A DNA stretch of 24,497 bases from a virus. Within the stretch, counting starts at the first letter, position 1. The number at the start of each line of letters is the position of its first letter. Under the pieces are notes generated by a model. The model did not search any database, was not told the origin of the DNA, and worked only from the letters and a program-made list of their open reading frames with translations. The stretch spans positions 1-24,497 of the IMG/VR virus record IMGVR_UViG_3300040801_002694; one strand, 5' to 3'. A program made the position numbers and the translations under genes. Below, in pieces: positions 2,601 to 23,991 of the stretch.

Positions 2601-3860
2601 TAAAGTAATTGGCTAGGTATCCTTACCATGAATATATCAAGTCGGGATGATCCCCCTCTGTTGCATGACCAAATAAAATACTCACCCGTTATGTCCGTGT
2701 TACCTTTTGGTAGTCTATTATAAAAGTTGCCTCCGCCCCCGGAGTTTGCACCCATGCTGGGAGCCACTATTAGACAGTCTTCACTTCCATCTAAGGGCAC
2801 TGCAAGTATTTCGTTTTCATGTACATCTGTATCCGGGCTAATACCTCCTCCTACGACGTACTGGTCCGCTAATGGAACTTGTGATACCGGCTTAGCATGC
2901 GCCCATGAAATATGAGGCAACGGTGAATTAGTGTAAGCTGCTCCGGTTGAACCTGAGTATATCTGAACCGATGACGTAAGTGGTGTTTTTATATCCGTAA
3001 CCTCAAGTACAGCAGGATCAGGTGCGTAGTTATTCGCATGCACCATATAATCATCATAGCCTAAATCAGAATGGCCTGCCGCCCCATCAAGATCATTAAA
3101 TACAATTTCAGCCCCATCAGAAACCCTTATTATTCTATTATCTTCACCCTGTAAACCGTCAACATTTTCCTTAATTACAATATAATTTCCATCCTTTGTT
3201 ATTTGTGATTCGTCATACGCTCCACTTGATGGGTATAAGTCAAAGGTATCTAGTTGAGAATCGTAAACTACTGCACCCAAATTGGAATATGCACCCGTTC
3301 TGTATGTCATTACATGGAATCTATCATTATTATCAGTGTGTGATTGCCATACTTTATAACCTGATTGAATTCTATCAGCATCAAAAACCTCGGTTACATC
3401 CCCACTTTGTAGTGGGAGACTGGAGACATCAATACTTTTTAGTGACCCTTCGTATGCCCAATACATCTTATTTGGGTCCACTGCTGAGAAATACGCATTA
3501 GGGAATGCTGTTGGGTTTCTATACAATACACCAGTATCGAATATTGGGGTGGGGGCACTTACCGTTTTTGTAACTTTATTATATTCAATAATACTTGGGC
3601 CCCCATCAGCCTCGGCAAGCCTGACCATAATCTTCATCACATCAGAACCGACATGGTTATTAGATACCCTCCAATAACTATAATCTACAGGAAATACGCT
3701 ATCCGTTGCGTAATTACTCGCACTGTTTGTTAGCCTTATACCCTCTGTATTCCATGGCGCAGGGAAAGTAAAGGTACCGACATCAGTGACGGGCATAAAT
3801 GAATCAATAGTGGCGGTATCCAATGCACCTCTAGCGGTAGCTCCTGCGGGATTTTCAATG
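2600..3860 (-). other. Probable beta-propeller (receptor-binding or glycan-active) domain of the giant protein
   Basis: About 420 residues follow the Pro/Thr linker. Repeated short beta-hairpin units with Y-x-x-I, D-x-x-I-V-F and I-x-Y-x-x-x-T patterns end in a closing blade, E-Y-F-I-W-S-C-N-R-G-G-S-S-R-L-D-I-F-M-V. This is like the S-N-x-G-G-x-x-x-D-x-F-x-V ending of PD40/TolB-type propellers. Histidines in G-H-S-D and S-W-A-H-A could be metal ligands, as in oligogalacturonide lyases, but this is speculative. Confidence 0.5.
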
Positions 3861-6800
3861 AACCCTCCGGGAGGTAGTGACTCGGCTGTACTAGCGGTTG
3901 GTGTCTGTGTTGGTGTAGGGGTCGCCGTTCCAGTTGGGGTTGGGGTTACGGTTTGTGTTTGGGTCGGGGATGCTCCAAATGATTGAGTTGGGGTTGGGGT
4001 TGGTGTTACCGTACCTGTAATGCTTGGCGTTGGTGTTGGCGTGAGTGTGCCAGTAACTGTTGCCTCAGGTGTTGGCGTCACTGGTGGTGTTGGAGAATTA
4101 GATATTGTCGGGGTAACCGTGGGCGTAATGCTTGGTGTTGGTGTTACCGTACCCGTTTGGGTTGGGGTTGGTGTCTGGGTCGCGGTTGGTGTTGGCGGTA
4201 TAGCCGACGCCGATGGTGTTGGTGATGCACTAATTGATGGGGTTGGGGTTGGTGTTGGTGATGCGGAAGGTAGTGGTACCTGTGTGGACTCAGGAATTTC
4301 CGTTATCACTTCTCCATCACCACACTCCCCTCCGGGCTCAAGCTCTCTTAATACTTGGTTTATATTTCTAGGCAATGATACGTTTTGTGCAATCTGTAGG
4401 GCTACCCAAGAAGTTTTGAATATTTCCTCATATTCTTTCTTTAAACTAAATGCGTCTCTGAGCATTTGGAAAAATATGTAATTAACATCCTCATTTGAGA
4501 ATGTATCATAAATCTCATACATCGTATTATATACATCTGTTTTTGTGTCCAGTGAATACGTTTGCCTGAATGAATCTATCTCTATGCCTTTAAATTCCCT
4601 AGCAGGATCATTAATTATTAAATTCAAAGTTTCCTTTGCTAGTGAAGATTCAGTAAATACTTGCTCGGTACCAAGTCCATAGCGAGTATCTTTACCGTAA
4701 AGTTCGTCGTACAAAATTCTATTAAGAGTTGGCACGTTGGTTGATCTGTCAATTACCCTATCCTTTACTGGGTTATTAACCATTGCGGAAATTAACTTTT
4801 CCCAGAGTTCTATGTCAATCTTGGAAAGTTGGCGCTCCCTGAATAACTTCCATTCCACATGTCTATTTTTATTGGAGAGGTTATCATCTAGTTTATCTCT
4901 TAATGTGAAATCTCGGGTAAAACGTAAGGTATATCTGGAGTCACCTTTGACTACTCCATCAAGGCCCTTAACTATGACCTGTGTATATCTATTTGGTACA
5001 TCATAATCAAATGGGTCGAATGTTGTACCGTATACAATACCATATCCGAACTCACTATCCCTTAAACCATCAATGATCATATAGGGATGGGTCATGCTCT
5101 TATAAGCCCGCTCAGCTTCAAATATACTTAACTTGAAGTTTCCTCCCTCTATTGCATCAGTTATTCCTCTTACCCAGAAATAATATAGTGGAGAGGGGTT
5201 GCCACTTACTGGGTCTACTCTGTTTTCACTGGAATAAGGGGTGTCATATTTATATAATCCATTATCCAATTGGTCAGGGGTTGGGGTTATACCTCGTTTT
5301 ACTATATTGATGTACGTAGATTCGGGTAATGTAGATGCATACGCTGTAAAATCTGCTGGTGCATTTACTGTTAATGCGGTTGAAAATTTCCCATTAAGGT
5401 ATATTTCAAGTTCACCGGTCAAGGAAGTGGTGTTGCTTGACCCAACAAGCCCAGCAATATACTCCTCAAATATATCAACATCTTCCTCTAGTACCCATAC
5501 AGGGTCATCTGATCGTGGGTTGAGCGCGTCATTTCTATAAAGTAATGTATACGGCTGTCCCTCTCCATCCCACTCACTAGGTGGGGCATCTGATTGTACC
5601 CACTGGTATACTGCTATATCTGCCCAATCCTGCAATTTGCCCCACTGTCTAATGCGCTCATCGAAATTAGTTATTGCGCTATCATCATAATACGGCACAT
5701 AAGATTCTTTTGACTTGTCGAACCATACAGTATCAACTTTATCGGATAGCCATGGCGTGAGATCGGAGGAGCCCCCATCTGGATAATTGGTATAGTTGGC
5801 CTGATCTTTAGCATCTTTAAATGTCACTATTGAATCTGCTAAGTAAAAGTACTCATCAAAGGCCGGGTTCCAGATGGGGACTTCAGTAATAACCGCCGCC
5901 GTTTCGTCAGTTTTGTCAACATTGCTAGTAACGCTTCTGCCACTTTTGTCGATTATCTTTGCTGGATTATTTGCATCATAAAAATATGTTATTATACTAA
6001 TATTCAATTCGATAAAATCTTCCGGATTATCCTCCGGATTATCCGATAAGAATTTAATGGCCCGCCTACTCACAAAGTCAAAGTCAACCTTGCGTTTTAA
6101 TTGAATTACTTTACCCTCTATTGGATCATATCTGGTGATAATGACAGAGTTGACATATTCCCCCAAATCCAAAATTTTAGATGTTACATCAATTTGGTTG
6201 GCTACATTTTCAAGTCTTTTCAATACATCTACGTCAAACCAAAATGCCGGATCAGGGGAAAGTTTTTCTAGCTGGTCAGGCTGATTCCACCACCTTTCTT
6301 GGTCTACAAGAGAAATTTCAGTGAATGATGAATTCCACTTAGCCTCATCCGGCAATACAAATTCAAGTCTTAATTCACTTTTCTTGGTATCGTTGGGTAG
6401 TAATAGAACTTCAGGGTATATCTTTTCTCCCATGCTGCCAAAGTCGGCAAGCCTGTATGCCCAGAATTCATCAATATTAGCCGAACCATATAAACTCTGG
6501 TTTACAAAGGCATCCACAGCAAAGTTGGTTCCTTTGTTTTGTATCATGCCCTTCCAGAATAAAAATTGAGTTTTAGCATTTAAGCCTATGTTGTCCATGT
6601 AATCAACGGTGCCGTCATAACCCAAAGATTGCCTAACCGATTTAGTCAAATCATTTGATTCTAATGTTACGTTGGTATCATACATGTATCGCAAATCTTC
6701 AACTGAAGATTCTATATTCTTAGATAGTGCGTCATTACTGAATACAAACCCCCCGACATTGGGCCTAAAGGTTATCTCATTTTGACGATTAAACTCCAAG

Positions 6801-9800
6801 AAAAAGTTGGGCGTGTTGATACCCAGAAATGAATCATAAATTAGAGTTCCATCGGAAGAATAGTCCTCGAACCTAATAATATTTTCATATCCATCAAAGA
6901 ATAAATCAGCGCCTCCAATATAGCGATCAATGCCTATACTAGGGTCTACTGTCCTTGACCTTAATTGACCAGTGGTTGATATTTTGGTCTCCTTATCCAA
7001 ACGAAATACTACTAATTCACTGTTGTTCATTAATTCTTTGGAATTGTCAAATATCCCCTGATTAGTTATGGTGTCAAGCTTACTTCCCTCTAGTATATTG
7101 GCGAGAACACCAGTTTCATGATTAATCCAAAACGCATCTTTCATTGGATTTATTTCAAGAACTGGGGTGTTAACTAGTCGCTTGTATACCTTTATTCTAT
7201 TTTCACCAACTCCATCATCTCTTATGTCAATAGCTTTCCCCTTTAACGCATCGTTTTTACTATAGGCTAACTGGATAACATCTTGAGTTGGCGTCCTTAT
7301 GATGTAATATGGTATTAAATTGGAATAGGTCACATTAAATGGTTCGGGGGCAACAACACCTTCATCCTCAACAAACACAATGGTGGCCCCCGTTTCCCAT
7401 CCCACGGGACCACTCTTTATTGTTAACGTATTATCAGTACTATTAATTTCTACTGGATACTCTAAGGGGTCTTCCTGCCTAATATTTGTAAGTAGGTAGA
7501 GGTTGTTTATAAATTTCTCCATTTCGAATTGCCAGTCATTAGTTCTCCCGGTAGCCTCATCGAAATTATCACCATTGGGATTCTTATGCCTAAATCCCTG
7601 ATCATACAAATAATCTTCATACCCAGTGATGAAGTCAACCATGTTTTGTATATTACTTATGCTATACCTATTGGGACAAGTTTTAACTTCCCTAGTATCG
7701 GAGTAGTGACGCCTCCAAACCGAATCGGTAACTTGTCCGGAAAGTGCTCTGAACGTGCGCTGTAATCTACCTACCATGTAATTGAATCCGGAGCCGGTTA
7801 TATTTGTTATCTGGCTTCCTTTATAGGCTTTATTTTCAGTATCGGCCAACTGTAGCTCTCGATCATTAAGTCTAATGACATAGTAAGGTGCCGTATTGTC
7901 TAATGGTGACGGAGGTGTCGCATTTCCATTTAAGAACACTTCAGTACCCGTAAGCCATGTGTCGGGCAGGTTTAAGGCATCACGGGGTTCAACAAAACCA
8001 TCTACTGTATAGTCAGTTATTTCTAGCGTTTCATTTACTGTAATATTTGTCTCGTTTCTTGTCGGATCAAATCTACTATCCAAAACAGTGTATGTACCAG
8101 TGAAATTAGTTGAATCGATAATGTCAAATACAGAACCAGCTTTAAAATAGCTTTCCTTATTTCCATTGACGACAAATACTTGTTCAAAGGCTGGAGGCTC
8201 AATGGTCGGGGGTTGTAAACCCGCATAAGAAAAATAGAGGGATGCGAACAGTCCCCTATCAGTTATTTGTACGGTACTGCCCGATCCTATGGTATCACTA
8301 AAAATGGCTATATTACCGTCCCGTAAGTCTGCCGTACCTAAGCTCTCCATTTGATCATTCAAAGAGTCTAGCAAATCTTGGACCGTTCTAACCTCACTGC
8401 CGATAATTGATAATTCTAATGTTGTTGTACCATCAAATATAATATCAGCAAAGAATGAATCGTTAAGATCGGGGTAATCACTTTCGGTGGTTAACCTAAG
8501 TGATTGATTATAATTAACTACATGGATACCTCTTTCTTCTCTAATCTCTGCCGTCTTCAATTCAAAGCTATTAAGTCTTAGTGTTGAATTATCAGCCTTT
8601 ACCCTATAGCTATAATTTTCAGTTGGGTAAAATTTTAAATCTTCATTCGTTGGCGAATAATTTGCGAATTCCGCAGTCCACCCTATGCCTTGTTCCCTAT
8701 TCCGGGCAAACCTAGAAGGTACAGCCATTATGTCCGCTGTTAAACCAAATGATAGTTTTCTATCTATTCCGGGGGTATATTTAGAATCAAGTGCATAGTC
8801 TCTTGTTGTTATGTCAAAAGTATCATTAGCTATTAGAAAGCTCTTAGTATCAACAAAGGCGCTCATCTCATAAGATAGTTGGGGACTCCAGTTGGCCCAC
8901 AACCGTCTGAACTCGGAAGCTTCCCCGTCAAAATTGAAATATCTATTATAGTGAGTGTACCATTGGCCAGTTCCATCAATTATATGGATGTCCCCGTCTT
9001 CGCTAACGAAATCTCCATGGAAAAGGGAATCCTTAACTCTGTAAGGTGATTTGGTTCTGGAGTCAACCTTTAAGCAATTTATACTAATGAAGTCTATGCC
9101 GTATGACTGGCTAGTGAATTTTAATGGGTCCAAAATAAAGGCGGTAGCCATATCATCATATAGTTTCTGAGAAGAAGTCCTCCACTTCCATTCTTCCCTA
9201 CCATTATCCTCCCATTTAAAGTCTAATTGAGGTAGTTCAACAAAATCATTAGCTACGGCTTCGTAAAGTGATCTTATTCGGGGATCATCACTGTTAGAAC
9301 CTGACCAGAATGGGGGGAGAAGACCGTCGGGTGGTATCCCATCAAGTGTATCAGTGTCACTAATGTTTACAGAAACATAATCATAACTTGTAACTTCGTC
9401 TTTTGCTCCAACGGATAAAGTTTCACCATCGGGTAGTAGTTCACCAGTAGGTATAATGCCATCTAAAATTCTCAACCACATTAGTGAATTCCATCGGCGC
9501 TGCCCGCTAGTGTTTAAATATATTGTGTCCCACCACTCCGGTTTATCAATGTAGCCTTGCAGTTTCCATGGCTCAAGGTGAGGGTAAGGAGTACCATAAA
9601 CTTTTTCGTATAGTCCCTGCCAACTCCCGGCTAAATCGGTTAACTCGGAGCCCGTAACAGGGTCATTGGTAATTGGAGAGTTGGAATAATTCCATGTAAA
9701 TGGGTCGGTCGGGTCGTAGAATATTTCATTTGCAAATACATTAAATATACCATTACTGTTCGTGTATTTTAGAAACTGTCGTTCAAGAGTGTCAGAATAC

Positions 9801-12800
9801 TCCACATCACTTTCATTTTTACTGAAATCATACCTTAGCTCTTCAAATTCCGGAATGTTATTGTAGAGACGGTTCTCAACTTCTAAAAATACAGAAGCGA
9901 GTACATCCTCATATGATATTTCTTCCCATAAAGCATTAAAGTTATATCTATATACTTTCCTAGTTTTATTCGAAGTTACAGTTCTAACCAAAAAGTCCCC
10001 CTGAATTAATGGCCTTCCATTTATACTGACAGGGAAAGAATCGGAGTCACTTATTACAATTTGCTCCTGTGCATTTGGTAGGGTGAGAAGCTGTTTATTA
10101 AGTCGCTCTCTTAACGATGGCAATAAGCTAATTTGGGCCCTATGGCCATCATGATGTATTAACTCTTTGATGCCCAGTGTATCATCGATATTCAGATATG
10201 GCTTTCTCGGTTCAACTAAGCCAAGATAAGGAAGTGTAGCTATCCAGTTTTTTATACCAGTATCATTTTCTTCATTATATGTAGTGCTATCGCCAAACCA
10301 CCTTGATAATGATGAGTTTGTTTCAAACATATCAATAAGCTCTTCGGCTATAGTCGGGAATAGTGAAGGGAACGTTGGTTGGCTAGGATCATTAATCAGT
10401 GATAGAAATTCTTCGAAAAATCTTTCTTCCAGCCATGTAAAGTTATTTTCATATTGGTCATGTGCAAACCTGTATAGCTCAAGTGGTGACACATTATTCA
10501 CAAACATGGTGGATACTAGCAAGTCAAAGTTATCATTATATTCTCTGATACTACCACCTATGCCATAATTTATTTCATCATCTAAATGGAATAAATTAGT
10601 GACATTGGATTGGATTCCGGGAGATTTCTGATTCTCGGCAATAGTTCTGAAATGCCTAAACAAATCTCTGAATCCGATGACTCTTCTATTTTTATGCTCA
10701 ACATTATAATAAAGTTGATTTGGCAATTCCCATAAGTCACTCCCTTCTATTTTTTGAGGGACATACTGGTCATTATTCAATCCCACCTTCCATAGATTTT
10801 GTAGTTCATTTCCAATGAAAGAGGAATCGTAATAGCAGTAAAGTTCACCGGTACTATCATCGTAAAGCTCATTTATAAATTCAAAATCTCTGGTCGATTC
10901 ATTGATTACTGCACGAGATAATAGGAACGGGTTTACTGGAAAATCACTAGATTCATTATATCTGAATATAGTGTTTGCGAAAATTTTAGGTTCTCCTGAG
11001 ACATCATAAATCCTAAAGTAAGGGCGTTGGTTCCTTTCCTGTTTTATTTGTTCAAGCTTTCTTATGTCTACTAAATTATAAGGCTCCAGTCCAGCTTCCG
11101 TATTTACTGGTATTGCCCGTCTGCCGATTTCATTTTCAGCATATTCACCAAGTTCAAACCTGACAACATCATTTTCAGTCAAAAGAACATCACTATCGAA
11201 AATTATACCCCCGACAAAGTCGGGATTTATTGATGATCTAACATCCGCATAGTTTCCATATTGCCTAATGTCGTTAATGTAAACCCGTAAGTCGCCCTCC
11301 TGATAATCCTCATAAAGGGTTAAGTCGTGCAGTGATTCATCAAAATCAAAAGCCAAACCAAACTCATAGATGGGGTCAACAAAAGCAAACTCCTGCCATA
11401 CTAAACCTATATTTGTTTCATAATCGGGATTACTGATTACTGAAGGATATCCCCCCGAAACTGTTTTACTTTCAATAAGTTCTTTGAGCATAGGATTTAT
11501 AAAGGGTTCGGGATTACCGTTAGAATTCTCATAGACCTGAACACTGGAAGCTGAAATATTCTTAATCCCCTCAAATAGCCAGTTTATTGATAGCCCATCA
11601 TCATCGAACCCACTCCATAGGTCACCTAAAGAAGTGCGTTCTGGTGCAATGTATGCACCTAGAGGAATATCAAAGGGGTCATTTATTGGCGTTGTAATAT
11701 TTATTACCGTTTGGTACCTCTTTTCGGGGAATACTTGATAAAATTCAACACTCTCAACTTCTTTATTGGAAGTATTAACTCCGAAATCACCTAAAACAAT
11801 TCGATCTCCCGGAGATATGTCATCAGTCAGGTTGCCGAATTTTTCATCAAGAATGATTTGCTGAGATGTTACAAACGATACTTCTCCGCCGTCAACAACC
11901 CTAGTATCTAACAATTCAAAATATGTTGGTTGTACATCAACTACCGAGAAGTCATTATTGGCATCAGGTCTATATTTCCATTCCTTTTCAGCGAATGATG
12001 TGTCGGAAAAAGAGATAAAAGGTGAAAATTCTATAATAGGAAATTCTGCCTTTTGTGAAATCTGGAGGTTAGATAATTGAGTTTTATGAACCCATTTATT
12101 TTCATTGGACCATTGACTTGACTCACGAGTGAGTTCATTCGTATCAACTAAATGTCTTCCATTTGTGAAACTAATAATAGAACTAATATTATTAGCTACT
12201 ATATTCCATTGAAAATTAAAGAATTGATTTAATGTATCGTTTTCTTCATCTATCCATACATCATAAAGGTTAGGAGATTCTGGCTTGTTAGTCAAAAACC
12301 TAGAGGCATATTGGTTAGTTTTTGCTGAAGTTAATTGTCTTCTAACAATTTGGTATTTAATATTTGTACGAGTGAAGAAAAATGCTGTGGGGTCAACTCC
12401 TACGGTATTGGGAGAAACACTCAATATAGGGTATTCCCCTGCACCCTTACCGTCAATTATTCTTAGAATATCTCCCGTCCTAACGCCAAGTACTGAGAAG
12501 TTAACATTTGAATCGGTAAAGTCATCGGAGTTTATTGAGGTTCTACCTAGTTCGGATTGAACTAATAATTTATCAGGTGACCATATAAGCTCCCCAATAA
12601 GTCCGGAGTTCCATTCCCCGTAAGGTGAGGTGGTGTAGTTTTCTATACACTGGGCGTTTAGTTCTTCAGCATTAAGAAGTGGTAGAGGTGCCATTGAACA
12701 TATATTATAATCCGTGGCATTAAGGTCTTCTTTTATACTAATAAGGGTTCGATTAGAGTCTTCGTCATATGTGGATGACTCTACTGAATTATAGGATAGC

Positions 12801-13657
12801 GGCTCGGTTGGTGACCCATCAAGTGAGAATACATAGCCTTCAGAAAAAACATCGGAATAGTTACCTTCTACCGATATCACATAAGGGTCACCTGATACTA
12901 ACGTAAATTCTATCTGGGTCTTACAAAAATTGGATGCGTCACTCGGAACATCTTTATTAAATATAAAGTCAGTGTTAAGGGTTGAGCCATTAAATGTAAC
13001 ACTTTCAATTCTTACTAGAACGCTTTCTTGGAGTTGATTATATACAACAAGATGTTCACCTATTGAGTAATTATCCGCGACATTGCCTGCCACGGATAAG
13101 TTAACACTAGCTGCGGACAGTACGGGTACTGAATCCTGATTACTTATTATCGTTCGCTTAGTTTGATCCGCTCTGGCTGATACCCATGTGCATCTGTTCT
13201 GGATAGTTACGTACTGGGGGATATCATCAAAATCATCAGAAACCCAAAAATAATTCTGGTAGTTGATAATCTTATCAAGGTCTATGGGTGGAGCCCAATT
13301 AAACTGAACAGATTTGCCCCACTCATTAAACCTTTCAGTATTAACCCCTAAGTATTCTAATCTTCTTAGCATGTCAGGAAAGGACATGTAGTAGTCAACC
13401 GATCCTACGCGAGAATGCGCTACTGGTTGTAATTGATGTTCCTGCCTATATGCGTCAGTCTCCCTTATTCTTGTATCCCTATCGGCTACTGGGTCCCTAT
13501 CACCAATAACCCCATTAATGCGAGTGAACTCATCCTTGGTCAGATACCGGTTGAATAGGTTCTCTTGAATGCTCTCCACTATCTCTAAACGAGACATGAA
13601 TGAAGGAAGCATATTGTTGATGTTTAATCTTTTGTTTTTGTAATCGGAATTACCCAC
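2600..13657 (-). CDS. Giant baseplate/tail structural protein, 3685 aa, with Pro/Thr linker and C-terminal beta-propeller
   Basis: A single open frame of 11 kb starts at a GTG preceded by AGAGGAAATT, a good Shine-Dalgarno. The N-terminal ~150 residues carry a pattern common to very large virion proteins of marine myoviruses (F-N-W-A-P-P-I-D-L-D-K-I-I-N-Y-Q-N-Y-F-W-V). The position directly after gp6 is where T4 has gp7, so this may be a hugely enlarged gp7-type wedge or an arm attached to it. The middle is Asp/Asn-, aromatic- and Thr-rich, with repeated Y-Y-x-I ... L-A ... A-x-K-G modules near residues 1920 and 2110. Residues ~3128-3265 are a low-complexity S-P-T-P-T linker. The last ~420 residues (G-H-S-D-L-G-Y-D, I-S-W-A-H-A-K-P, D-I-T-G-E-Y-F-I-W-S-C-N-R-G-G) resemble a TolB/oligogalacturonide-lyase-like beta-propeller and probably contact the host surface. 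No transmembrane segment is seen. Being structural is well supported; the gp7 equivalence is inference. Confidence 0.85.
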   Translation of the reverse strand: MGNSDYKNKRLNINNMLPSFMSRLEIVESIQENLFNRYLTKDEFTRINGVIGDRDPVADRDTRIRETDAYRQEHQLQPVAHSRVGSVDYYMSFPDMLRRLEYLGVNTERFNEWGKSVQFNWAPPIDLDKIINYQNYFWVSDDFDDIPQYVTIQNRCTWVSARADQTKRTIISNQDSVPVLSAASVNLSVAGNVADNYSIGEHLVVYNQLQESVLVRIESVTFNGSTLNTDFIFNKDVPSDASNFCKTQIEFTLVSGDPYVISVEGNYSDVFSEGYVFSLDGSPTEPLSYNSVESSTYDEDSNRTLISIKEDLNATDYNICSMAPLPLLNAEELNAQCIENYTTSPYGEWNSGLIGELIWSPDKLLVQSELGRTSINSDDFTDSNVNFSVLGVRTGDILRIIDGKGAGEYPILSVSPNTVGVDPTAFFFTRTNIKYQIVRRQLTSAKTNQYASRFLTNKPESPNLYDVWIDEENDTLNQFFNFQWNIVANNISSIISFTNGRHLVDTNELTRESSQWSNENKWVHKTQLSNLQISQKAEFPIIEFSPFISFSDTSFAEKEWKYRPDANNDFSVVDVQPTYFELLDTRVVDGGEVSFVTSQQIILDEKFGNLTDDISPGDRIVLGDFGVNTSNKEVESVEFYQVFPEKRYQTVINITTPINDPFDIPLGAYIAPERTSLGDLWSGFDDDGLSINWLFEGIKNISASSVQVYENSNGNPEPFINPMLKELIESKTVSGGYPSVISNPDYETNIGLVWQEFAFVDPIYEFGLAFDFDESLHDLTLYEDYQEGDLRVYINDIRQYGNYADVRSSINPDFVGGIIFDSDVLLTENDVVRFELGEYAENEIGRRAIPVNTEAGLEPYNLVDIRKLEQIKQERNQRPYFRIYDVSGEPKIFANTIFRYNESSDFPVNPFLLSRAVINESTRDFEFINELYDDSTGELYCYYDSSFIGNELQNLWKVGLNNDQYVPQKIEGSDLWELPNQLYYNVEHKNRRVIGFRDLFRHFRTIAENQKSPGIQSNVTNLFHLDDEINYGIGGSIREYNDNFDLLVSTMFVNNVSPLELYRFAHDQYENNFTWLEERFFEEFLSLINDPSQPTFPSLFPTIAEELIDMFETNSSLSRWFGDSTTYNEENDTGIKNWIATLPYLGLVEPRKPYLNIDDTLGIKELIHHDGHRAQISLLPSLRERLNKQLLTLPNAQEQIVISDSDSFPVSINGRPLIQGDFLVRTVTSNKTRKVYRYNFNALWEEISYEDVLASVFLEVENRLYNNIPEFEELRYDFSKNESDVEYSDTLERQFLKYTNSNGIFNVFANEIFYDPTDPFTWNYSNSPITNDPVTGSELTDLAGSWQGLYEKVYGTPYPHLEPWKLQGYIDKPEWWDTIYLNTSGQRRWNSLMWLRILDGIIPTGELLPDGETLSVGAKDEVTSYDYVSVNISDTDTLDGIPPDGLLPPFWSGSNSDDPRIRSLYEAVANDFVELPQLDFKWEDNGREEWKWRTSSQKLYDDMATAFILDPLKFTSQSYGIDFISINCLKVDSRTKSPYRVKDSLFHGDFVSEDGDIHIIDGTGQWYTHYNRYFNFDGEASEFRRLWANWSPQLSYEMSAFVDTKSFLIANDTFDITTRDYALDSKYTPGIDRKLSFGLTADIMAVPSRFARNREQGIGWTAEFANYSPTNEDLKFYPTENYSYRVKADNSTLRLNSFELKTAEIREERGIHVVNYNQSLRLTTESDYPDLNDSFFADIIFDGTTTLELSIIGSEVRTVQDLLDSLNDQMESLGTADLRDGNIAIFSDTIGSGSTVQITDRGLFASLYFSYAGLQPPTIEPPAFEQVFVVNGNKESYFKAGSVFDIIDSTNFTGTYTVLDSRFDPTRNETNITVNETLEITDYTVDGFVEPRDALNLPDTWLTGTEVFLNGNATPPSPLDNTAPYYVIRLNDRELQLADTENKAYKGSQITNITGSGFNYMVGRLQRTFRALSGQVTDSVWRRHYSDTREVKTCPNRYSISNIQNMVDFITGYEDYLYDQGFRHKNPNGDNFDEATGRTNDWQFEMEKFINNLYLLTNIRQEDPLEYPVEINSTDNTLTIKSGPVGWETGATIVFVEDEGVVAPEPFNVTYSNLIPYYIIRTPTQDVIQLAYSKNDALKGKAIDIRDDGVGENRIKVYKRLVNTPVLEINPMKDAFWINHETGVLANILEGSKLDTITNQGIFDNSKELMNNSELVVFRLDKETKISTTGQLRSRTVDPSIGIDRYIGGADLFFDGYENIIRFEDYSSDGTLIYDSFLGINTPNFFLEFNRQNEITFRPNVGGFVFSNDALSKNIESSVEDLRYMYDTNVTLESNDLTKSVRQSLGYDGTVDYMDNIGLNAKTQFLFWKGMIQNKGTNFAVDAFVNQSLYGSANIDEFWAYRLADFGSMGEKIYPEVLLLPNDTKKSELRLEFVLPDEAKWNSSFTEISLVDQERWWNQPDQLEKLSPDPAFWFDVDVLKRLENVANQIDVTSKILDLGEYVNSVIITRYDPIEGKVIQLKRKVDFDFVSRRAIKFLSDNPEDNPEDFIELNISIITYFYDANNPAKIIDKSGRSVTSNVDKTDETAAVITEVPIWNPAFDEYFYLADSIVTFKDAKDQANYTNYPDGGSSDLTPWLSDKVDTVWFDKSKESYVPYYDDSAITNFDERIRQWGKLQDWADIAVYQWVQSDAPPSEWDGEGQPYTLLYRNDALNPRSDDPVWVLEEDVDIFEEYIAGLVGSSNTTSLTGELEIYLNGKFSTALTVNAPADFTAYASTLPESTYINIVKRGITPTPDQLDNGLYKYDTPYSSENRVDPVSGNPSPLYYFWVRGITDAIEGGNFKLSIFEAERAYKSMTHPYMIIDGLRDSEFGYGIVYGTTFDPFDYDVPNRYTQVIVKGLDGVVKGDSRYTLRFTRDFTLRDKLDDNLSNKNRHVEWKLFRERQLSKIDIELWEKLISAMVNNPVKDRVIDRSTNVPTLNRILYDELYGKDTRYGLGTEQVFTESSLAKETLNLIINDPAREFKGIEIDSFRQTYSLDTKTDVYNTMYEIYDTFSNEDVNYIFFQMLRDAFSLKKEYEEIFKTSWVALQIAQNVSLPRNINQVLRELEPGGECGDGEVITEIPESTQVPLPSASPTPTPTPSISASPTPSASAIPPTPTATQTPTPTQTGTVTPTPSITPTVTPTISNSPTPPVTPTPEATVTGTLTPTPTPSITGTVTPTPTPTQSFGASPTQTQTVTPTPTGTATPTPTQTPTASTAESLPPGGFIENPAGATARGALDTATIDSFMPVTDVGTFTFPAPWNTEGIRLTNSASNYATDSVFPVDYSYWRVSNNHVGSDVMKIMVRLAEADGGPSIIEYNKVTKTVSAPTPIFDTGVLYRNPTAFPNAYFSAVDPNKMYWAYEGSLKSIDVSSLPLQSGDVTEVFDADRIQSGYKVWQSHTDNNDRFHVMTYRTGAYSNLGAVVYDSQLDTFDLYPSSGAYDESQITKDGNYIVIKENVDGLQGEDNRIIRVSDGAEIVFNDLDGAAGHSDLGYDDYMVHANNYAPDPAVLEVTDIKTPLTSSVQIYSGSTGAAYTNSPLPHISWAHAKPVSQVPLADQYVVGGGISPDTDVHENEILAVPLDGSEDCLIVAPSMGANSGGGGNFYNRLPKGNTDITGEYFIWSCNRGGSSRLDIFMVRIPSQLL
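3868..4275 (-). repeat. Pro/Thr/Ser low-complexity linker repeat
   Basis: A degenerate tandem repeat codes for about 135 residues of (S/T)-P-T-P-T, with T-G-T-V-T-P-T-P and A-S-P-T units between. In the DNA the plus strand is a run of GGTTGG, GGGGTT and GGTGTT words, which makes six-frame artefacts and possible G-quadruplexes. The protein segment should be an extended flexible tether between the baseplate-attached body and the C-terminal propeller. Confidence 0.9.
6021..6044. repeat. Tandem 12-bp duplication in the giant gene
   Basis: TCCGGATTATCC occurs twice head to tail and codes, on the minus strand, for a duplicated D-N-P-E unit (S-D-N-P-E-D-N-P-E-D-F). It is probably a recent replication-slippage event that kept the frame. 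Confidence 0.85.
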
Positions 13658-17621: not shown

Positions 17622-19374
17622 ATCTTCGCCAGAATTCACCACGCTCAGTTTTTTCATCACCCTCAACCACACCAATATCTTCTCTGCCCTGTTGTCCTTC
17701 ATTATCGTATTGATCTATCCAATCAACATTATTCTTATATCCATCATTTTCTTCATTTACAGTATCGTCGCTATCTTGTTTTAATACTCTAGGCCACGGT
17801 TCATGATCTGGGACCCTATTTGTCCACGGAGCTAATTCGGCTTCTTCCACATCAGTGTCAGGGGAGCGCATAATTTCGGGTATTACAATTCTTGGAATGG
17901 CTAAGAGTGGAACGCCACACCCGGAACTACATGCAATTAATGAGTTAATAGTAATTGCCATTTCAGTAATGGATGTCCCGTAATCATTAAACTGTACTAA
18001 TGGTGCATCCAGTGTTATAACTCCGGGGGCTATTTCAATATTACTGGTACTTCCGCCCAATTGTAATATTCCACTTGCCTCCGCTCGTATATTTCCTGAA
18101 GAATCCAACTGTATGCTGGACTCCATTGATATGGTATCCGATGGGGTTATAAGATTAAGTTCATTAGTGCCACTTTCTATATTAATGGAACCGCTAATAA
18201 AGGTTTCACTTTCCCCATCAATGAGAATATCTCTATTGCCGTTAATCTTCTGATAAAAATCCCCTTCAGTGAACAGGTGCATATCGTTTGACGACTGAAA
18301 TCGAATCTGCCCATCATCTGGTATTGAATCTAATGGGGCTTGGCCCTCGGTGTCACCCGCGTACATATGGATTCCTTTTTTGGCCTTTACTCGAAAAGTC
18401 TCATCAGTAGAAAAGTTAATATCTTTCTTCGCTCGCATTGATATTCTTCTATCAGAATAAACATCTATATTTCCATTAACATCCAACTCTATCCATGACT
18501 TACCCTCATACGTGTTCACGTAAATTCTTTCGTTGGTATCATCCAAAATTATCTGGTGCCCCGCCGTTGTGCGAAGTTTTATTCGTGAATTAAAAGCCCT
18601 GTCATCGAAAACAATTGAATGCAGTCCGGGGCTACAAAATCCGACAATTCTTGACGCTAAGTATGCCCCCAAAGATTTAAATCCTGACCAATCGTATCCC
18701 ATTGATCCAAGTTTTTCCTTTACCCAACTATCTTCCTCAGCCCCGGATATTTCCCCGTAGGTGCCGAACGAGTCAATTTCAACATTCTTAGTTCCAGAAT
18801 AATCACCGCCCCTAGTTTTCCACTCACTAGAGGTTTTATCATCTTGGAATGCTTTGGCCAGATTGTCATATGTTGGCTGTATCGGGTTACGCTCTCCCTC
18901 GTATCCGGGGCCAGAGGAAGTTAGCGGACCATCAGGGCCTCCGCTATTCCAGTCGTAGGAGCCGGTGAGTACACCTCCAATTTCCTGATGATCGTAAACA
19001 CACCCCATCCAAACCCTTCTTCGCGGGTCACCGTTTATACATGTAACTAAGACATTAGCGCCAATTTCGGGTATGGCCCAGAACCCGTAAGGTACGGTGC
19101 CTGAAGTGCTTTCGGAGCCTTTCTGATGACCGCGAGTGTAGTCCCCATTTCTTATGGTTCCACCAAAAGGAGAAACATATGTCGCCCATGGGAGATGCTG
19201 TACCTTTTTCGGATCGTCATTCAGGTCCGGGCAATACACCCTGAGTCTACCCATCTGTAGGGGGTCATCAGTATCTACCACCACACCCAGTGAACATCCA
19301 AAATTTGCGGCAGAGTGATTGTCCCCTTTGCGGTTAAGGGATAATTTGCTTTTTAGTCTATTTAAAATTCCCAT
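17620..19374 (-). CDS. 5: Baseplate central spike gp5-like protein without lysozyme domain, 584 aa
   Basis: Residues ~24-150 form an OB-fold of the gp5/VgrG type (L-G-V-V-V-D-T-D-D-P-L-Q-M-G-R-L-R-V-Y-C-P, then G-F-W-A-I-P-E-I-G-A-N-V-L-V-T-C-I-N-G-D-P-R-R-R-V-W-M-G). Residues ~260-470 are a needle-like beta-helix region of short I-x-I-x-S/D-x repeats (I-N-I-E-S-G, I-R-A-E-A-S-G, I-E-I-A-P-G). T4 gp5 has a lysozyme domain between these parts; here the linker shows no lysozyme motif. The C-terminal ~90 residues are charged and Trp-containing (P-W-T-N-R-V-P-D-H-E-P-W-P), a tail of unknown role that might bind a tip protein. The start overlaps the stop of the hub gene (TAATG). The protein should form the trimeric membrane-piercing spike on the hub. 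Confidence 0.85.
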   Translation of the reverse strand: MGILNRLKSKLSLNRKGDNHSAANFGCSLGVVVDTDDPLQMGRLRVYCPDLNDDPKKVQHLPWATYVSPFGGTIRNGDYTRGHQKGSESTSGTVPYGFWAIPEIGANVLVTCINGDPRRRVWMGCVYDHQEIGGVLTGSYDWNSGGPDGPLTSSGPGYEGERNPIQPTYDNLAKAFQDDKTSSEWKTRGGDYSGTKNVEIDSFGTYGEISGAEEDSWVKEKLGSMGYDWSGFKSLGAYLASRIVGFCSPGLHSIVFDDRAFNSRIKLRTTAGHQIILDDTNERIYVNTYEGKSWIELDVNGNIDVYSDRRISMRAKKDINFSTDETFRVKAKKGIHMYAGDTEGQAPLDSIPDDGQIRFQSSNDMHLFTEGDFYQKINGNRDILIDGESETFISGSINIESGTNELNLITPSDTISMESSIQLDSSGNIRAEASGILQLGGSTSNIEIAPGVITLDAPLVQFNDYGTSITEMAITINSLIACSSGCGVPLLAIPRIVIPEIMRSPDTDVEEAELAPWTNRVPDHEPWPRVLKQDSDDTVNEENDGYKNNVDWIDQYDNEGQQGREDIGVVEGDEKTERGEFWRR

Positions 19375-21173
19375 TATATTATATCATCCCTCTTAGCCAA
19401 TTGTATTCTTTGGTAAAACCTACTTTCAACCATAATATTACTCACACCTACTATCTCGTAATGATTCCTGTAGTAATATTTCGGATTGGTGGTAGTGGAC
19501 GGGTTAAGTCCAATTTGTGCATCAGAATCTAAGAATATATCTATAGTCAAATACATTGGATATGATTCCGGCATTTCATAATATCTAAAATCTCCCGGAG
19601 AATTTAGCGATGCGGCTTCGGAAGGTTTGCGATAAAGATCGAACATTAAATCGGGGTTGCCGTATATCTGTATCTCATGTGCCGAAGTTTGACTGTTTTC
19701 AAGTGTTTGCATTATATCCGCGTTAGCCCCTGCGACACCATCTTCAAGGCCCCCATTCAAGTATGGTATTACACTGGTTCTTAGTCCACTAAATTCCGAG
19801 TCAAAAAAATTTGTACCCGGAGCGGTATCTGGAATGCTCTCACCCATTACAGGTTCCCGGTTACCTAGTACGGCAACACGCGGGCCGCGCTCTAAAGTCT
19901 TAATACCGTTGTCGGTTGTTATGCTGGTTTTGAGATAAGTTATGTCCACATCTGTCCGTTCGCCAGCTTTGAATGTATAATTTAGGGGCTGAGACGCAAC
20001 ACCGGGGCCGGTATCTATGGATGTGGTCGTTACTGCAACATCTATTTGCTTTATCTTTATGACTAGCTTTAGCTGATTCGATTCTTTGATGTATGAAATA
20101 TTAATCTTAAATGATTTGGGTGGGGTTAGTGCCGCATCATCTCCTACCTTACGGGAAAACTTCATAAGATATGATACCATCTCAACAAGGGTTGCCCCGG
20201 CCCTCAGTGGTACACTCGTAACCCCAGATACATTCTTGTCCTCATCGGTTTGTTCGAATGGTAGGTTTCTATTATCTATTTCATAGGAATTGTATATTTC
20301 ATCCAACTGAACTTCGAACTTCACAGGAAGCTTTTCACCTCTCTGCTGATTTGGTTCGGGATCAATTTTATATTCATATCCATCACGAATATCTTTAAGC
20401 CATTTCTGTACCTGTCGTTTATGGGCATATTGCTGCTGATTCAGTTCGACCTCAAAAGCATCAAACAAATCTTTAAGATTTTTCATGGGTTTACTCTTTT
20501 CCAGCCTTTGTAATCTGGGTCCAGTTTTTGTAGCGTCTTCATTACCACGAAAATCTATACCCCCAGAAGGTGCGAAAATTTGAGGGTCCGAGTTATTTAA
20601 ATTTCCGTCTTTATGGGTTAAAGTCATTTGATAGGGCTTAAAGTTTACCCGTTGCCCAGTACTGTTGTATGCTCCTGTAAAGTGCATGGCGACCGTTGTT
20701 CCCGTTTGAGCCATTGAGTTATCAGCATTCATCATGTCTTCAAACTCATGGACGTGAAATATAAGAGGATTGCCAGTGTATATCTGATATGCTTCAGTAT
20801 CGCGATCAACTCCCATAAAATAGGTCTTAAGTGCGAAAGTCATATGCTGGGCGGACACTCCCATCTTCGGAATAATATTAGTCTTGAACCAATCAATAAA
20901 CCTTCCACCTACGGCATCGGCTATTTTTATAGTCCCCGTCATGCTCGTAGTTTTATTTCCTCGATTCCATGCCCAGCTTATAGTGGGTATGGTAAAAGTT
21001 GCATCAGTGAACTCATTAGTGATAATGAACCCATCCCCTACCGCATCCCCTGCGTTACCGGATGTATTAGTTAATGGGGTATTCTCTGCACTACTTGTAG
21101 TCTTAAATGCGGCAAGTACATGCTGAGTCTGGAATGTATCTAATTGGAGTAGGGGATTTTTTGGATTAGACAT
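19374..21173 (-). CDS. Baseplate hub candidate (gp27-like role), 599 aa
   Basis: There is no direct sequence match I can name, but several points suggest the gp27 hub. It is immediately followed by gp5 with overlapping codons, the usual hub-spike pairing. It has a beta-rich N-terminus with the T-I-S-W-A-W-N pattern. It closes with H-E-I-Q-I-Y-G-N-P-D-L-M, then Y-Y-Y-R-N-H-Y-E-I-V-G-V-S-N-I-M-V-E-S-R-F-Y-Q-R-I-Q-L-A-K-R. This is like the G-D-P ... Y-x-I-x-x-V-x-H-x-F-x-x-G-x-F-x-x-x-L-x-L-x-R ending of hub proteins. A helical insert at ~240-290 (Q-Q-Q-Y-A-H-K-R-Q-V-Q-K-W-L-K-D) is unusual. It is longer than T4 gp27 (391 aa). The start follows the gp53 stop within four bases. Confidence 0.6.
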   Translation of the reverse strand: MSNPKNPLLQLDTFQTQHVLAAFKTTSSAENTPLTNTSGNAGDAVGDGFIITNEFTDATFTIPTISWAWNRGNKTTSMTGTIKIADAVGGRFIDWFKTNIIPKMGVSAQHMTFALKTYFMGVDRDTEAYQIYTGNPLIFHVHEFEDMMNADNSMAQTGTTVAMHFTGAYNSTGQRVNFKPYQMTLTHKDGNLNNSDPQIFAPSGGIDFRGNEDATKTGPRLQRLEKSKPMKNLKDLFDAFEVELNQQQYAHKRQVQKWLKDIRDGYEYKIDPEPNQQRGEKLPVKFEVQLDEIYNSYEIDNRNLPFEQTDEDKNVSGVTSVPLRAGATLVEMVSYLMKFSRKVGDDAALTPPKSFKINISYIKESNQLKLVIKIKQIDVAVTTTSIDTGPGVASQPLNYTFKAGERTDVDITYLKTSITTDNGIKTLERGPRVAVLGNREPVMGESIPDTAPGTNFFDSEFSGLRTSVIPYLNGGLEDGVAGANADIMQTLENSQTSAHEIQIYGNPDLMFDLYRKPSEAASLNSPGDFRYYEMPESYPMYLTIDIFLDSDAQIGLNPSTTTNPKYYYRNHYEIVGVSNIMVESRFYQRIQLAKRDDII

Positions 21174-21177
21174 TCAT

Positions 21178-21534
21178 TTATAGTCTACTGTCCTGAACCC
21201 TGATAGGATTTACAAGGATATCGAAATATACCCTATCTTTTGAGGGAATAGTAATTGTTTTACCAGCAGTAAACTCCTCCAGTGTATCGACCATATTATT
21301 ATATTGTAACACAATCCATTCTAGTTTCGCATTACCATAGTAATCAAATGCTACCAAATCTGGACGTTGTGCGTACTTGCTAGATATGTATACTCTAATA
21401 TCGGTAACGTCATCATCTTCAAGTAAAAATCTTTCCCACCAGCTAAGGCGTTTTTTATTTATGTCAGTCTCTCCGCCCTGTAAATAGCGGCTATTTTTTT
21501 TCAATACCGAAGATTTATCTTTGAATTCTTTCAT
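21178..21534 (-). CDS. 53: Baseplate wedge protein gp53-like, 118 aa
   Basis: Residues ~63-98 (F-D-Y-Y-G-N-A-K-L-E-W-I-V-L-Q-Y-N-N, then E-F-T-A-G-K-T-I-T-I-P) match the LysM-like core of gp53, where T4-type proteins have Y-Y-G-x-x-x-x-W-W-I-I-x-x-x-N and G-x-x-L-x-I-P. gp53 clamps the gp6/gp25 wedge core around the hub. It is shorter than T4 gp53 (196 aa), keeping the core and an N-terminal amphipathic stretch. The ATG follows the stop of the tube-cap gene by one base. Confidence 0.8.
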   Translation of the reverse strand: MKEFKDKSSVLKKNSRYLQGGETDINKKRLSWWERFLLEDDDVTDIRVYISSKYAQRPDLVAFDYYGNAKLEWIVLQYNNMVDTLEEFTAGKTITIPSKDRVYFDILVNPIRVQDSRL

Positions 21535-21535
21535 T

Positions 21536-22261
21536 TTACCAATTCAATAATGATCCATCTCTGTATGAGTGGATGTTGAAATTTTCTAAGTCGTTGTCGG
21601 AGCGAACCTCTTTTAATGCAATACTAAATGTTTGAACAATTGGGACGCTTGCCCTTCCATTACTAGTCTTAATATAACTAACATTATTGGGGTAGTCTAT
21701 ATTGAAAGATGTTATAACACAGGGTACTCCCCTTAACTGTCCCCCTGATTCACCGCCATATCCATAAAGCTTTAAAATTTCAGGAGAGTTTGCGCCCCCT
21801 ACACCAGTACCACTTACCTGACCACCGCCCCCATCCTTACTGGGAGTTGTCCATGCCTTCAGTCTATGTGTGTAGGTATAAGTAAGGTCGGCCTCTTCTG
21901 TTGTTTTCGACACCATTCTTGCATTTATTTGATATGTTCTTAACTGAGTTCCGATATAAATTAAAATTCCACCAGCCTGCCTAATTTCCGATATCTCCTG
22001 ATAATTTACTGTACGGCTTTCGGATAGTTCTGGAGTTACATAGAACCTAACCCCGAATTGCTGGGAGCTACCCCCTCTCTGAATTAGTCGTATTTCTTCT
22101 TGTCCCGTGATCCATTTCTGGGTAAGTTGGCGCTGCACTTCAGCATTAACGTCAGCAAAAGATTGTCCGCTAGCGGAAACAGTAACCTGACGAGGGTTAC
22201 CTGAGGTTGGTGCTCCACCCGTTCCACCCGAAGTTCCCGATCTTGATCCTTGATTACTCAT
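21536..22261 (-). CDS. Baseplate tail-tube cap/junction protein gp48/gp54-like, 241 aa
   Basis: After a Gly/Ser/Thr-rich N-terminal 25 residues comes a beta-rich domain with the features of the tube-initiator family. P-E-I-L-K-L-Y-G-Y-G-G is followed by L-R-G-V-P-C-V-I-T-S-F-N-I-D-Y-P-N-N-V-S-Y-I, then V-P-I-V-Q-T-F-S-I-A-L-K-E-V-R-S. These match the L-R-x-V-x-V-x-I-x-S-x-x-I-x-Y-P ... P-x-x-x-x-x-x-L-x-L-x-E pattern shared by gp48, gp54 and LysM-tube proteins. Such proteins seat on the hub and start tube polymerisation; gp48 and gp54 cannot be told apart here. It is the first gene of the minus-strand hub operon. The ATG lies exactly where the transcript from the overlapping late promoter would begin, so the mRNA may be leaderless. 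Confidence 0.75.
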   Translation of the reverse strand: MSNQGSRSGTSGGTGGAPTSGNPRQVTVSASGQSFADVNAEVQRQLTQKWITGQEEIRLIQRGGSSQQFGVRFYVTPELSESRTVNYQEISEIRQAGGILIYIGTQLRTYQINARMVSKTTEEADLTYTYTHRLKAWTTPSKDGGGGQVSGTGVGGANSPEILKLYGYGGESGGQLRGVPCVITSFNIDYPNNVSYIKTSNGRASVPIVQTFSIALKEVRSDNDLENFNIHSYRDGSLLNW

Positions 22262-22363: not shown

Positions 22364-23407
22364 GTGAACGAAGAAACTAGATTAGATCAATTAGCAGAAA
22401 ACGTTGCGAATGAGGAGGCATCGCCTCGTCAAATAAACGACAATCCACTACTAAGAAGATTTACACATATTCCACCAGAAACATTTAGGCTACCTTCAGG
22501 TGGTGTTTTTTACCAGAATGGCGAATTAGACCCCGAAGTTGTTAATGGTGAAGTTATAGTACACCCAATGACTGCGGTTGATGAAATTGCAATACGTTCC
22601 CCGGATATGATGTTTCAAGGAACTGCGGTTGAAAAGGTATTCAGAAGATGTATACCTCAAGTAAAGAAGCCATTAGAGCTTCTAACCAATGACGTAGATT
22701 ATCTTTTGGTATGTTTACGCATGGTAACTTACGGTTCAACATTAGACCTGAATTGGGAGTGCCCGGTATGTGCCGAGGAAAGGAAGGCTCTTGAAGATGA
22801 AGTTAAGGAAAACTTACAGCGAGAAATACAGGATGGTAGCGTAAGAAAGACCGGCTCCGAGCAGCCAATGAATCCAAGATTCCCCTCCAATGATGACGGT
22901 GTCGAGGCAGTACAGACACGAGGAGATAGCGAACAGGCTCAGGTTATTGATAACTCCAAAGTCTCCTATAAAGTTGACCTCAACGATTTCATAAAAAAGA
23001 CCAGAGCATTAAAGGTAACCGAGGACTTTACGGTGGAGTTACCTACCGGGGAAGTTGTTGCACTTAAACCTTCTACCTATGCTGATACAACTAAAATGCT
23101 ACAGCAAAGTAATGAAGACTTTAAAGACCCTGATGAGATTTTCGAATTTATTGCAGATGCAATTATGGGTGTTATTAAATCTGTTGATGGCGTAACTAAT
23201 CAAGCTCATATACGAGAATGGCTTGAAATGTGTGAAGCTCCATCTCTTACATATCTTCAGGAAAAGATGCATGTTACTAATGAGTGGGGTACAGAATTTA
23301 CCTACAATTTCAAATGTAAAGATTGTGGTCATGAGGTCGAGGGCGTAATTCCGCTTAATCCTGTAAGTTTTTTTTCACGGCCCTCAGTCACCAAGACAAA
23401 AGCGTAA
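22364..23407 (+). CDS. 26: Baseplate hub assembly protein gp26-like, 347 aa (zero-frame product)
   Basis: Residues ~41-137 match the T4 baseplate gp26 family: F-R-L-P-S-G-G-V-F-Y, V-H-P-M-T-A-V-D-E-I-A-I-R-S-P, F-Q-G-T-A-V-E-K-V-F-R-R-C, L-L-V-C-L-R-M-V-T-Y-G, W-E-C133-P-V-C136. A second C-x-x-C (C318-K-D-C321-G-H) near the end completes a probable four-cysteine zinc site. An acidic insert of ~70 residues separates the halves (T4 gp26 is 208 aa). The family helps assemble the central hub. The start is GTG with GGAG 8 nt upstream. The last in-frame residues run through eight T's, after which the zero frame ends within 11 codons. A -1 slip there continues into a gp51-like domain, giving a 413-aa fusion. 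Confidence 0.85.
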   Translation: MNEETRLDQLAENVANEEASPRQINDNPLLRRFTHIPPETFRLPSGGVFYQNGELDPEVVNGEVIVHPMTAVDEIAIRSPDMMFQGTAVEKVFRRCIPQVKKPLELLTNDVDYLLVCLRMVTYGSTLDLNWECPVCAEERKALEDEVKENLQREIQDGSVRKTGSEQPMNPRFPSNDDGVEAVQTRGDSEQAQVIDNSKVSYKVDLNDFIKKTRALKVTEDFTVELPTGEVVALKPSTYADTTKMLQQSNEDFKDPDEIFEFIADAIMGVIKSVDGVTNQAHIREWLEMCEAPSLTYLQEKMHVTNEWGTEFTYNFKCKDCGHEVEGVIPLNPVSFFSRPSVTKTKA

Positions 23408-23434
23408 TTCAAAAGCACATCACGAGACTGAGGG
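23368..23434 (+). promoter_or_regulatory. Predicted -1 programmed ribosomal frameshift signal
   Basis: The zero-frame codons run agT TTT TTT, so the heptamer T_TTT_TTT (23368-23374) is in the correct phase for tandem -1 slippage. Six nt later the arm CCCTCAGTC (23381-23389) pairs perfectly with GACTGAGGG (23426-23434), a 9-bp stem with a 36-nt loop that encloses the zero-frame stop TAA (23405-23407). Slippage places the ribosome in the frame ending at 23604. Heptamer phase, spacer length and stem all fit a classical signal. Frameshifting itself is inferred. Confidence 0.75.
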
Positions 23435-23604
23435 AAGAAGTACATGAGATTTTAAAATCTCTAATTATACTATCCTATTTCAGTAGAGGGGCAATGCCTT
23501 ACTCTGATGCATTGGAGTTGACTCCTTATGAGAGAGACCTAATAAACGACTTCCAAACCGAGCATGTTAAAAGAGAACTTGACTCTGGTACCTTTAATTA
23601 TTAA
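23374..23604 (+). CDS. 51: gp51-like hub assembly domain, read in the -1 frame after gp26 (76 codons)
   Basis: In the -1 frame the codons after the slip site read F-T-A-L-S-H-Q-D-K-S-V-I-Q-K, then a helical region E-V-H-E-I-L-K-S-L-I-I-L-S-Y-F-S-R-G-A-M-P-Y, then A-L-E-L-T-P-Y-E-R-D-L-I-N-D-F. This matches the C-terminal helical module of gp26/gp51-type hub proteins (a hydrophobic helix, Y-F-x-R-G-x-x-x-Y-x-x-x-x-x-L-x-x-x-E-R). The frame is open from 23359 but has no ATG, GTG or TTG before an ATG at 23494, which would cut off the first helix. An ATT at 23407 has no ribosome-binding site. Expression by -1 frameshift from gp26 is therefore the most economical reading; the alternative is a one-base undercount in the T run. 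Confidence 0.7.
   Translation, partial: FTALSHQDKSVIQKHITRLREEVHEILKSLIILSYFSRGAMPYSDALELTPYERDLINDFQTEHVKRELDSGTFNY
23446..23461. repeat. Perfect 16-bp palindrome downstream of the frameshift stem
   Basis: GAGATTTT is followed directly by AAAATCTC, 11 nt after the frameshift stem and within the gp51-like frame. As RNA it would be a 6-bp stem with a TTAA loop. It may be incidental in AT-rich coding DNA or add to the frameshift structure. Confidence 0.7.
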
Positions 23605-23613
23605 AATGCTCTA

Positions 23614-23991
23614 ATGTTTAGCTATCATAAATTAATTGTGGCCGGTGGCCGTGATTTTAATGACTACAAGCTCTTGTCTCGAAAGGTTAGCGCCATAAGA
23701 AAGGTTGTATGGAGTGAATTCTTAGCTGATGACCTTGAGATAGTTAGCGGCGGAGCAAGGGGTGCTGACCGCCTTGGCGAGCGTTGGGCTAAAGAAAATC
23801 ACGCAAGCATGAAACAGTTCCCTGCCGATTGGGACCGTTTAGGTAAAAGGGCAGGATTTGTTCGCAACGAACAGATGGCAAAGTATGCAGATAGCCTAAT
23901 TGCATTTTGGGATTCAAAATCTGCCGGAACCGGGCACATGATAAACTTAGCTAGGAAATATAAGTTGAATGTAATGATCGTAAGATACTAA
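23614..23991 (+). CDS. YspA/DUF2493-type SLOG family nucleotide-binding protein, 125 aa
   Basis: The full-length match to the YspA-like SLOG family is clear: V-A-G-G-R-D-F at residues 9-15, the glycine-rich S-G-G-A-R-G-A-D at 45-52, F-P-A-D-W at 69-73, G-x-x-R-N-x-Q-M-A at 81-89, A-D-S-L-I-A-F-W-D at 92-100 and S-A-G-T-G-H-M-I at 103-110. SLOG proteins have Rossmann-like folds that bind nucleotides or nucleotide-derived ligands, and relatives sense signals in Thoeris- and CBASS-linked systems. The exact ligand of the YspA branch is not established to my knowledge. The ATG lies nine bases after the gp51-frame stop, so it is probably co-transcribed with gp26/gp51. A role in nucleotide metabolism or in blunting host defence signalling is inference. 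Confidence 0.85.
   Translation: MFSYHKLIVAGGRDFNDYKLLSRKVSAIRKVVWSEFLADDLEIVSGGARGADRLGERWAKENHASMKQFPADWDRLGKRAGFVRNEQMAKYADSLIAFWDSKSAGTGHMINLARKYKLNVMIVRY

Follow-up and report, generated by a model that had tools for sequence, protein, structure and literature searches.

A predicted programmed -1 frameshift joins gp26 to gp51 in a T4-related giant phage

The gp26-like gene analyzed here very probably gives rise to two proteins, a short chaperone, gp26, and a long one, gp26-gp51, with -1 frameshifting near its 3' end providing the second product where T4 uses two genes. The locus lies in a 24,497-base virus fragment, and "the window" below means this whole stretch of DNA. The phage it comes from is a T4-related giant phage. 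This reading is based on sequence comparison, and its main supports are a frameshift signal at the end of gp26, the conservation of that signal and of the -1 frame behind it among relatives, and the composition of the T4 homologs. The features of the locus, each with its basis, are as follows.

22364-23407, + strand: gp26-like gene, 347 aa, predicted short tail assembly chaperone (TAC-N); PF12322, phrog_150, AlphaFold
23368-23374, + strand: slippery heptamer T_TTT_TTT, within the 8-T run 23368-23375; direct reading, heptamer in 81 of 84 lineages
23374-23604, + strand: gp51-like -1 extension, 76 aa plus stop, predicted C-terminal part of TAC-NC; conservation, T4 gp51 homology
23375-23380, + strand: 6-nt spacer from heptamer to stem; spacing as in 14 of the 15 strongest stems of the family (5-6 nt)
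23381-23389, + strand: stimulator stem, 5' arm CCCTCAGTC; reading, helix search, folding, two compensated pairs in the relative L013
23390-23425, + strand: 36-nt loop containing the gp26 stop, TAA 23405-23407; reading, helix search
23426-23434, + strand: stimulator stem, 3' arm GACTGAGGG; reading, helix search, folding

Results

Read directly, positions 23368-23375 of the window form a run of eight T. The gp26 reading frame (zero frame) passes through this run as AGT TTT TTT TCA and continues to the TAA at 23405-23407, so that T_TTT_TTT is in phase with gp26, as the original prediction had it. The rest of the signal was also read correctly there: the heptamer is followed by a spacer of 6 nt and then by a perfect 9-bp stem, CCCTCAGTC with GACTGAGGG, whose 36-nt loop holds the zero-frame stop. 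A stimulatory structure usually begins 5-8 nt past the slip site, and the better shifters are homogeneous ZZN codons, for example UUU and UUC (UUY) (PMC4066793); at 6 nt after the heptamer, the stem in the window begins within that range. Its score was reached by 3 of 4000 dinucleotide-preserving shuffles; elsewhere in the window, 2 of 1320 positions equalled it, and the folding z at the stem is -2.96. An Rfam search of the window gave no match. The signal as originally described is correct in every detail and is beyond chance.

The gp26-like gene starts with GTG at 22364 and has GGAG ahead of the start. Its product matches PF12322 (T4_baseplate) with an E value of 3.9e-15 and 56.6 bits, the Pfam gathering cut-off being 24.5, and also matches phrog_150 (baseplate hub); the AlphaFold model has a pLDDT of 86. 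About 60 residues of the protein (22775-22970, residues about 138-202), some of them predicted with low confidence, form an insert that is absent from the ten other phages in the same alignment. After a slip, 337 residues of gp26 would be followed by the 76-aa extension, which ends at TAA 23602-23604. From the sequence of this one locus we thus predict a short form of 347 aa and a C-terminally extended form of 413 aa. Both lengths reproduce those first proposed, and the junction peptide given with them, S-F-F-F-T-A-L, is correct on translation. The -1 frame, which runs for 76 codons before its stop, had been said to lack a normal start; its earliest ATG, GTG or TTG is indeed codon 41 (ATG 23494). 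The extension had further been described as a gp51-like helical module, a description that agrees with its two long predicted helices (pLDDT 88) and with its homology to the tail of T4 gp51, presented below.

Relatives were gathered by tblastn and alignment-based scans, which yielded 182 usable gp26 loci falling into 84 lineages at 75% identity. A nucleotide search of a phage collection with the junction found nothing, nor did a single-protein scan of viral contigs. The loci come from giant-phage isolates (XacN1, RAS14, Phosso, SCTP-2, Atu_ph07, PA5oct, PBECO4, RaK2, GAP32, CBB, Munch and others), from IMG/VR contigs, from one contig in a bacterial MAG and from cyanophages. An in-phase T_TTT_TT[T/C/G] is present at the 3' end of gp26 in 81 of the 84 lineages, whereas the use of TTT and third-position T in the individual genes predicts 16. 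The T run, whose conservation in related phages the original prediction proposed as a check, is kept in phase nearly throughout. Control Phe-Phe pairs, taken from elsewhere in long frames of the same loci, were slippery in 22 of 199 instances (11%), and the run is retained at 85-90% third-position G+C (L136 and L176, the latter at 90%). Of the 79 untruncated lineages, 78 have a -1 frame of 59 or more open codons, the exception being S-SCSM1 (L109), and the -1 frames of two further lineages run off contig ends; random -1 frames within gp26 reached this length in 10 of 2430 trials (0.4%). Conservation of the extension at the protein level begins with its first residues, at the slip site. In ten lineages, including the window, RaK2 and PA5oct, its first 25 codons contain no ATG, GTG or TTG, and the PA5oct extension has no start codon anywhere. 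We conclude from these comparisons that the heptamer and the open -1 frame are conserved by selection.

T4 gp26 and T4 gp51 each match the whole of PF12322, and gp51 has about 48 residues beyond this domain. The gp51 tail aligns with the gp51 of cyanophages (hhalign 96.4%, E 1e-9) and with the -1 extensions of the window's family (hhalign 93.6%, E 2e-7). Because of these domain and tail matches, T4 gp51 corresponds in make-up to the predicted fusion and T4 gp26 to the short product; the homology of gp26/gp51 to their T4 counterparts, part of the original proposal, is confirmed by PF12322 and hhalign. T4 and the window are alike in that the gp26 part and the C-terminal part of gp51 are homologous and in that there is a short and a long product. 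However, in T4 gene 26 lies on one strand and gene 51 on the other, whereas the window has one gene and a -1 shift. T4 gene 26 also ends without a slippery heptamer: the Phe-Phe pair encoded at its end is written with the non-slippery TTC TTT. Each of the giant-phage records searched, which measure 317-385 kb, has one gp26 copy, and the long form in these phages would therefore need the shift. A second gp26 copy was not found in phages with or without the heptamer, several of these records being fragments. P1 gp26 was dropped as a relative; it aligns with T4 gp53 and has only the name in common.

Some lineages depart from the pattern. In L169 and L180/L181, TTC TTC replaces the slippery pair, and in L122 and L125 the T run is shorter or displaced; in each case gp51 stays in the -1 phase, and either re-initiation may be in use or the heptamer may have been lost recently. 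In the cyanophage S-SCSM1 (L109, 2200-2413) the slippery run is kept and gp51 is out of the -1 phase, which reflects either genuine loss of the fusion or an error in the sequence.

These lineages bear on the alternative that gp51 is a separate small protein, made by ribosomes that re-initiate once past the gp26 stop or that start at the internal ATG 23494, with the T run reflecting no more than codon choice. In many relatives an ATG close to the gp26 stop could start gp51, and gene annotations frequently begin there, so re-initiation could contribute in many of them; the window has an SD-like AGAGGGG ahead of ATG 23494, and L169 and L180/L181 keep gp51 despite having lost the heptamer. However, AGAGGGG encodes a near-invariant Arg-Gly pair and the Met there is not conserved, and the startless first 25 codons in the window, RaK2, PA5oct and seven other lineages are still conserved as protein. 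The heptamer is moreover retained against codon bias, and in T4 gp51 a gp26-type domain carries the same tail. We consider a separate gp51 improbable as the account of this locus. Genomes in which gp51 has its own start, with no stem or slippery run, named at the outset as evidence against frameshifting, do occur, but they are few and the family as a whole is built differently. We continue to favor frameshifting from gp26 into the gp51-like extension.

The region after each heptamer was scanned with a simple helix search that allowed a spacing of 3-14 nt. Stems with a shuffle p <=0.02 were found in 15 lineages, and 14 of the 15 begin 5-6 nt after the heptamer. Since four of these lineages (the window, L013, L130 and L020) have related stems, the 15 are not fully independent; the other strong stems are unrelated in sequence (CCATCAAGTCC in XacN1, GGCTCTTTGT in Atu_ph07, CGCTGAAATC in L116 and ACGCTGAGGAC in L142). 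L013, the closest relative of the window, aligns with it without gaps across the T run, the stem and the stop, with A in place of the eighth T. Its stem, CCCTCAACC/GGTTGAGGG, differs from that of the window, CCCTCAGTC/GACTGAGGG, by two compensated pairs, as assessed by hand, and its 3'-arm changes (AGA CTG to AGG TTG) leave the protein encoded in the -1 frame unaltered. L130 has the same TGAGGG in a different codon register, and protein constraint alone is therefore insufficient to explain this motif. By the simple helix search, no significant stem was found in most lineages, including almost all of the 13 cyanophage lineages, so that the stimulators of cyanophages may be of other types or absent. 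Conservation of the stem in relatives, which was to be checked along with that of the T run, thus holds for the 15 lineages with strong stems and does not extend to most of the family.

The length of the T run also bears on transcriptional slippage, in which RNA polymerase slipping on the eight T would produce mRNAs with an altered number of U, some of them encoding the fusion. Such runs can slip RNA polymerase, and eight or more T are present at the slip site in six lineages besides the window, with nine in two lineages. Nevertheless, 55 of the 81 slippery lineages have only six T there, the phase of the heptamer is fixed, and a stem at 5-6 nt fits slippage by the ribosome rather than by the polymerase; we regard the transcriptional route as highly improbable. 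An assembly or sequencing error in the run, the true gene being a continuous gp26-gp51 frame with nine T, is likewise highly improbable: homopolymer runs are error-prone, but the alignment with L013 passes through the run without a gap and the same frame break is found in independent relatives, isolated phages included. Ribosomal frameshifting into gp51 remains the reading we prefer.

Several other genes were noted. In the public records of PA5oct (L007, 3325-3552) and RaK2 (L102, downstream of the slip site) no gene is listed for the gp51-like extension, in which a start codon is absent or late; in Atu_ph07 (L006, 3319-3555) a gp51-like gene is annotated from an internal Met, omitting about half of the conserved extension. 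Directly after gp51 the window encodes a YspA-like SLOG-family protein (PF10686) at 23614-23991. On the - strand, a 191-aa protein (1310-1885) matches phrog_11778, a 197-aa DNA polymerase family, over nearly its whole length and covers only a middle part of a full polymerase profile; it is perhaps a piece of a split polymerase. Also on the - strand, a frame of 3685 aa with a GTG start (2600-13657) has a partial match to phrog_10938, a family of giant virion structural proteins.

Discussion

We envision a scenario in which most ribosomes would read gp26 to its stop and produce the 347-aa short form. In a fraction of cases the stem, 6 nt beyond the heptamer, would delay the ribosome, which would shift from T_TTT_TTT to the -1 frame and so pass the stop in the stem loop, yielding the 413-aa gp26-gp51 fusion. 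By homology to T4 and analogy with lambda gpG/gpGT, the gp26 part may bind the tape measure or the hub, and the small helical gp51 part could recruit tail-tube or hub subunits, with the rate of slippage setting the ratio of short to long product. The sequence itself establishes the signal, its phase, its conservation and the homologies, and we infer that slippage takes place and at what rate. For the two forms, an action on the tape measure or hub like that of lambda gpG and gpGT is suggested by analogy.

Frameshifted tail assembly chaperones include lambda G/GT, P2 E/E' and HK97 gp13/14, and the slippery sequence of lambda differs from that in the window. The window resembles these systems in its predicted short chaperone, predicted slip near the 3' end of the gene and small C-terminal extension in the -1 frame. 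The comparison with lambda G/GT, made in the original prediction, is supported by domain arrangement: T4 gp51 consists of the short-form domain and the same C-terminal tail. By this analogy the gp26/gp51 products may function as tape-measure chaperones. Frameshifted tail assembly chaperones, with lambda G/GT as the textbook case, have been reviewed (PMC5009743). A search of solved structures by sequence returned no match, and so found no sequence relation to those chaperones. The window gp26 model compared with the HK97 chaperone 2ob9 gave a non-significant match (TMt 0.53, Foldseek prob 0.38, E 2.4), and 2ob9 was the only PDB match with a target TM-score >0.5 among the matches listed. The chaperone of phage Adele (Pakpunavirus/Vandenendeviridae) offers a further parallel, with a conserved T-rich slippery motif ending TAC-N, a -1 frame that is uninterrupted in all genomes and a C-terminal part that is usually annotated separately; its motif, however, is GTTTTT, and the likeness to the window is by description (PMC12846349).

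No tape-measure gene was recognized in the window adjoining gp26 or directly downstream of it. In the cyanophage S-SM2 the gene overlapping gp51 weakly matches tape-measure families (E 2e-5). Upstream of gp26 the window has three genes on the - strand (19374-22261; 241, 118 and 599 aa), where a single gene of 730-830 aa is present in PA5oct, PBECO4 and other phages. The version in PA5oct resembles a tape-measure protein and the three genes of the window do not.

Since frameshifted tail chaperones have been described before, the window represents a new, well-supported case of a mechanism already known. Vladimirov, Gautam and Davidson reportedly identified the tail assembly chaperone genes of T4-like phages in 2022, and the title of their paper names a mechanism other than frameshifting. 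The original prediction knew of no published description of gp26/gp51, a statement that no longer holds given that this paper, to go by its title, covers the tail assembly chaperones of T4-like phages. One later paper quotes it for phages with a short gene and a fused long gene (PMC10885494), and another refers to it on the T-rich slippery sequences that T4-like phages have in their short gene (PMC12846349). A literature search of limited coverage returned no description of the signal across giant phages or of its stems.

How the two arrangements are related can be proposed from these comparisons. We lean, by a modest degree, toward a model in which the frameshift is the rule, and probably ancestral, for gp26/gp51 outside the T4 family proper, in giant phages and cyanophages, with the stimulator stem arising anew in different sequences while its distance stays fixed. 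The signal would then have disappeared from T4 and its close relatives once a second, fused copy, gp51, had assumed the role of the long form.

The hub chaperones of T4 have long included gp26 and gp51, though with an unclear role; a review of T4 names both as hub assembly chaperones and describes gp51 as essential and of unknown function (PMC3004832). In the public records of PA5oct, RaK2 and Atu_ph07, gp51 is missing or mis-started. Because the predicted frameshift that fuses gp26 to gp51 is conserved and T4 has the same fusion as a separate gene, the chaperone reading would be directly testable by fixing the ratio of the two forms.
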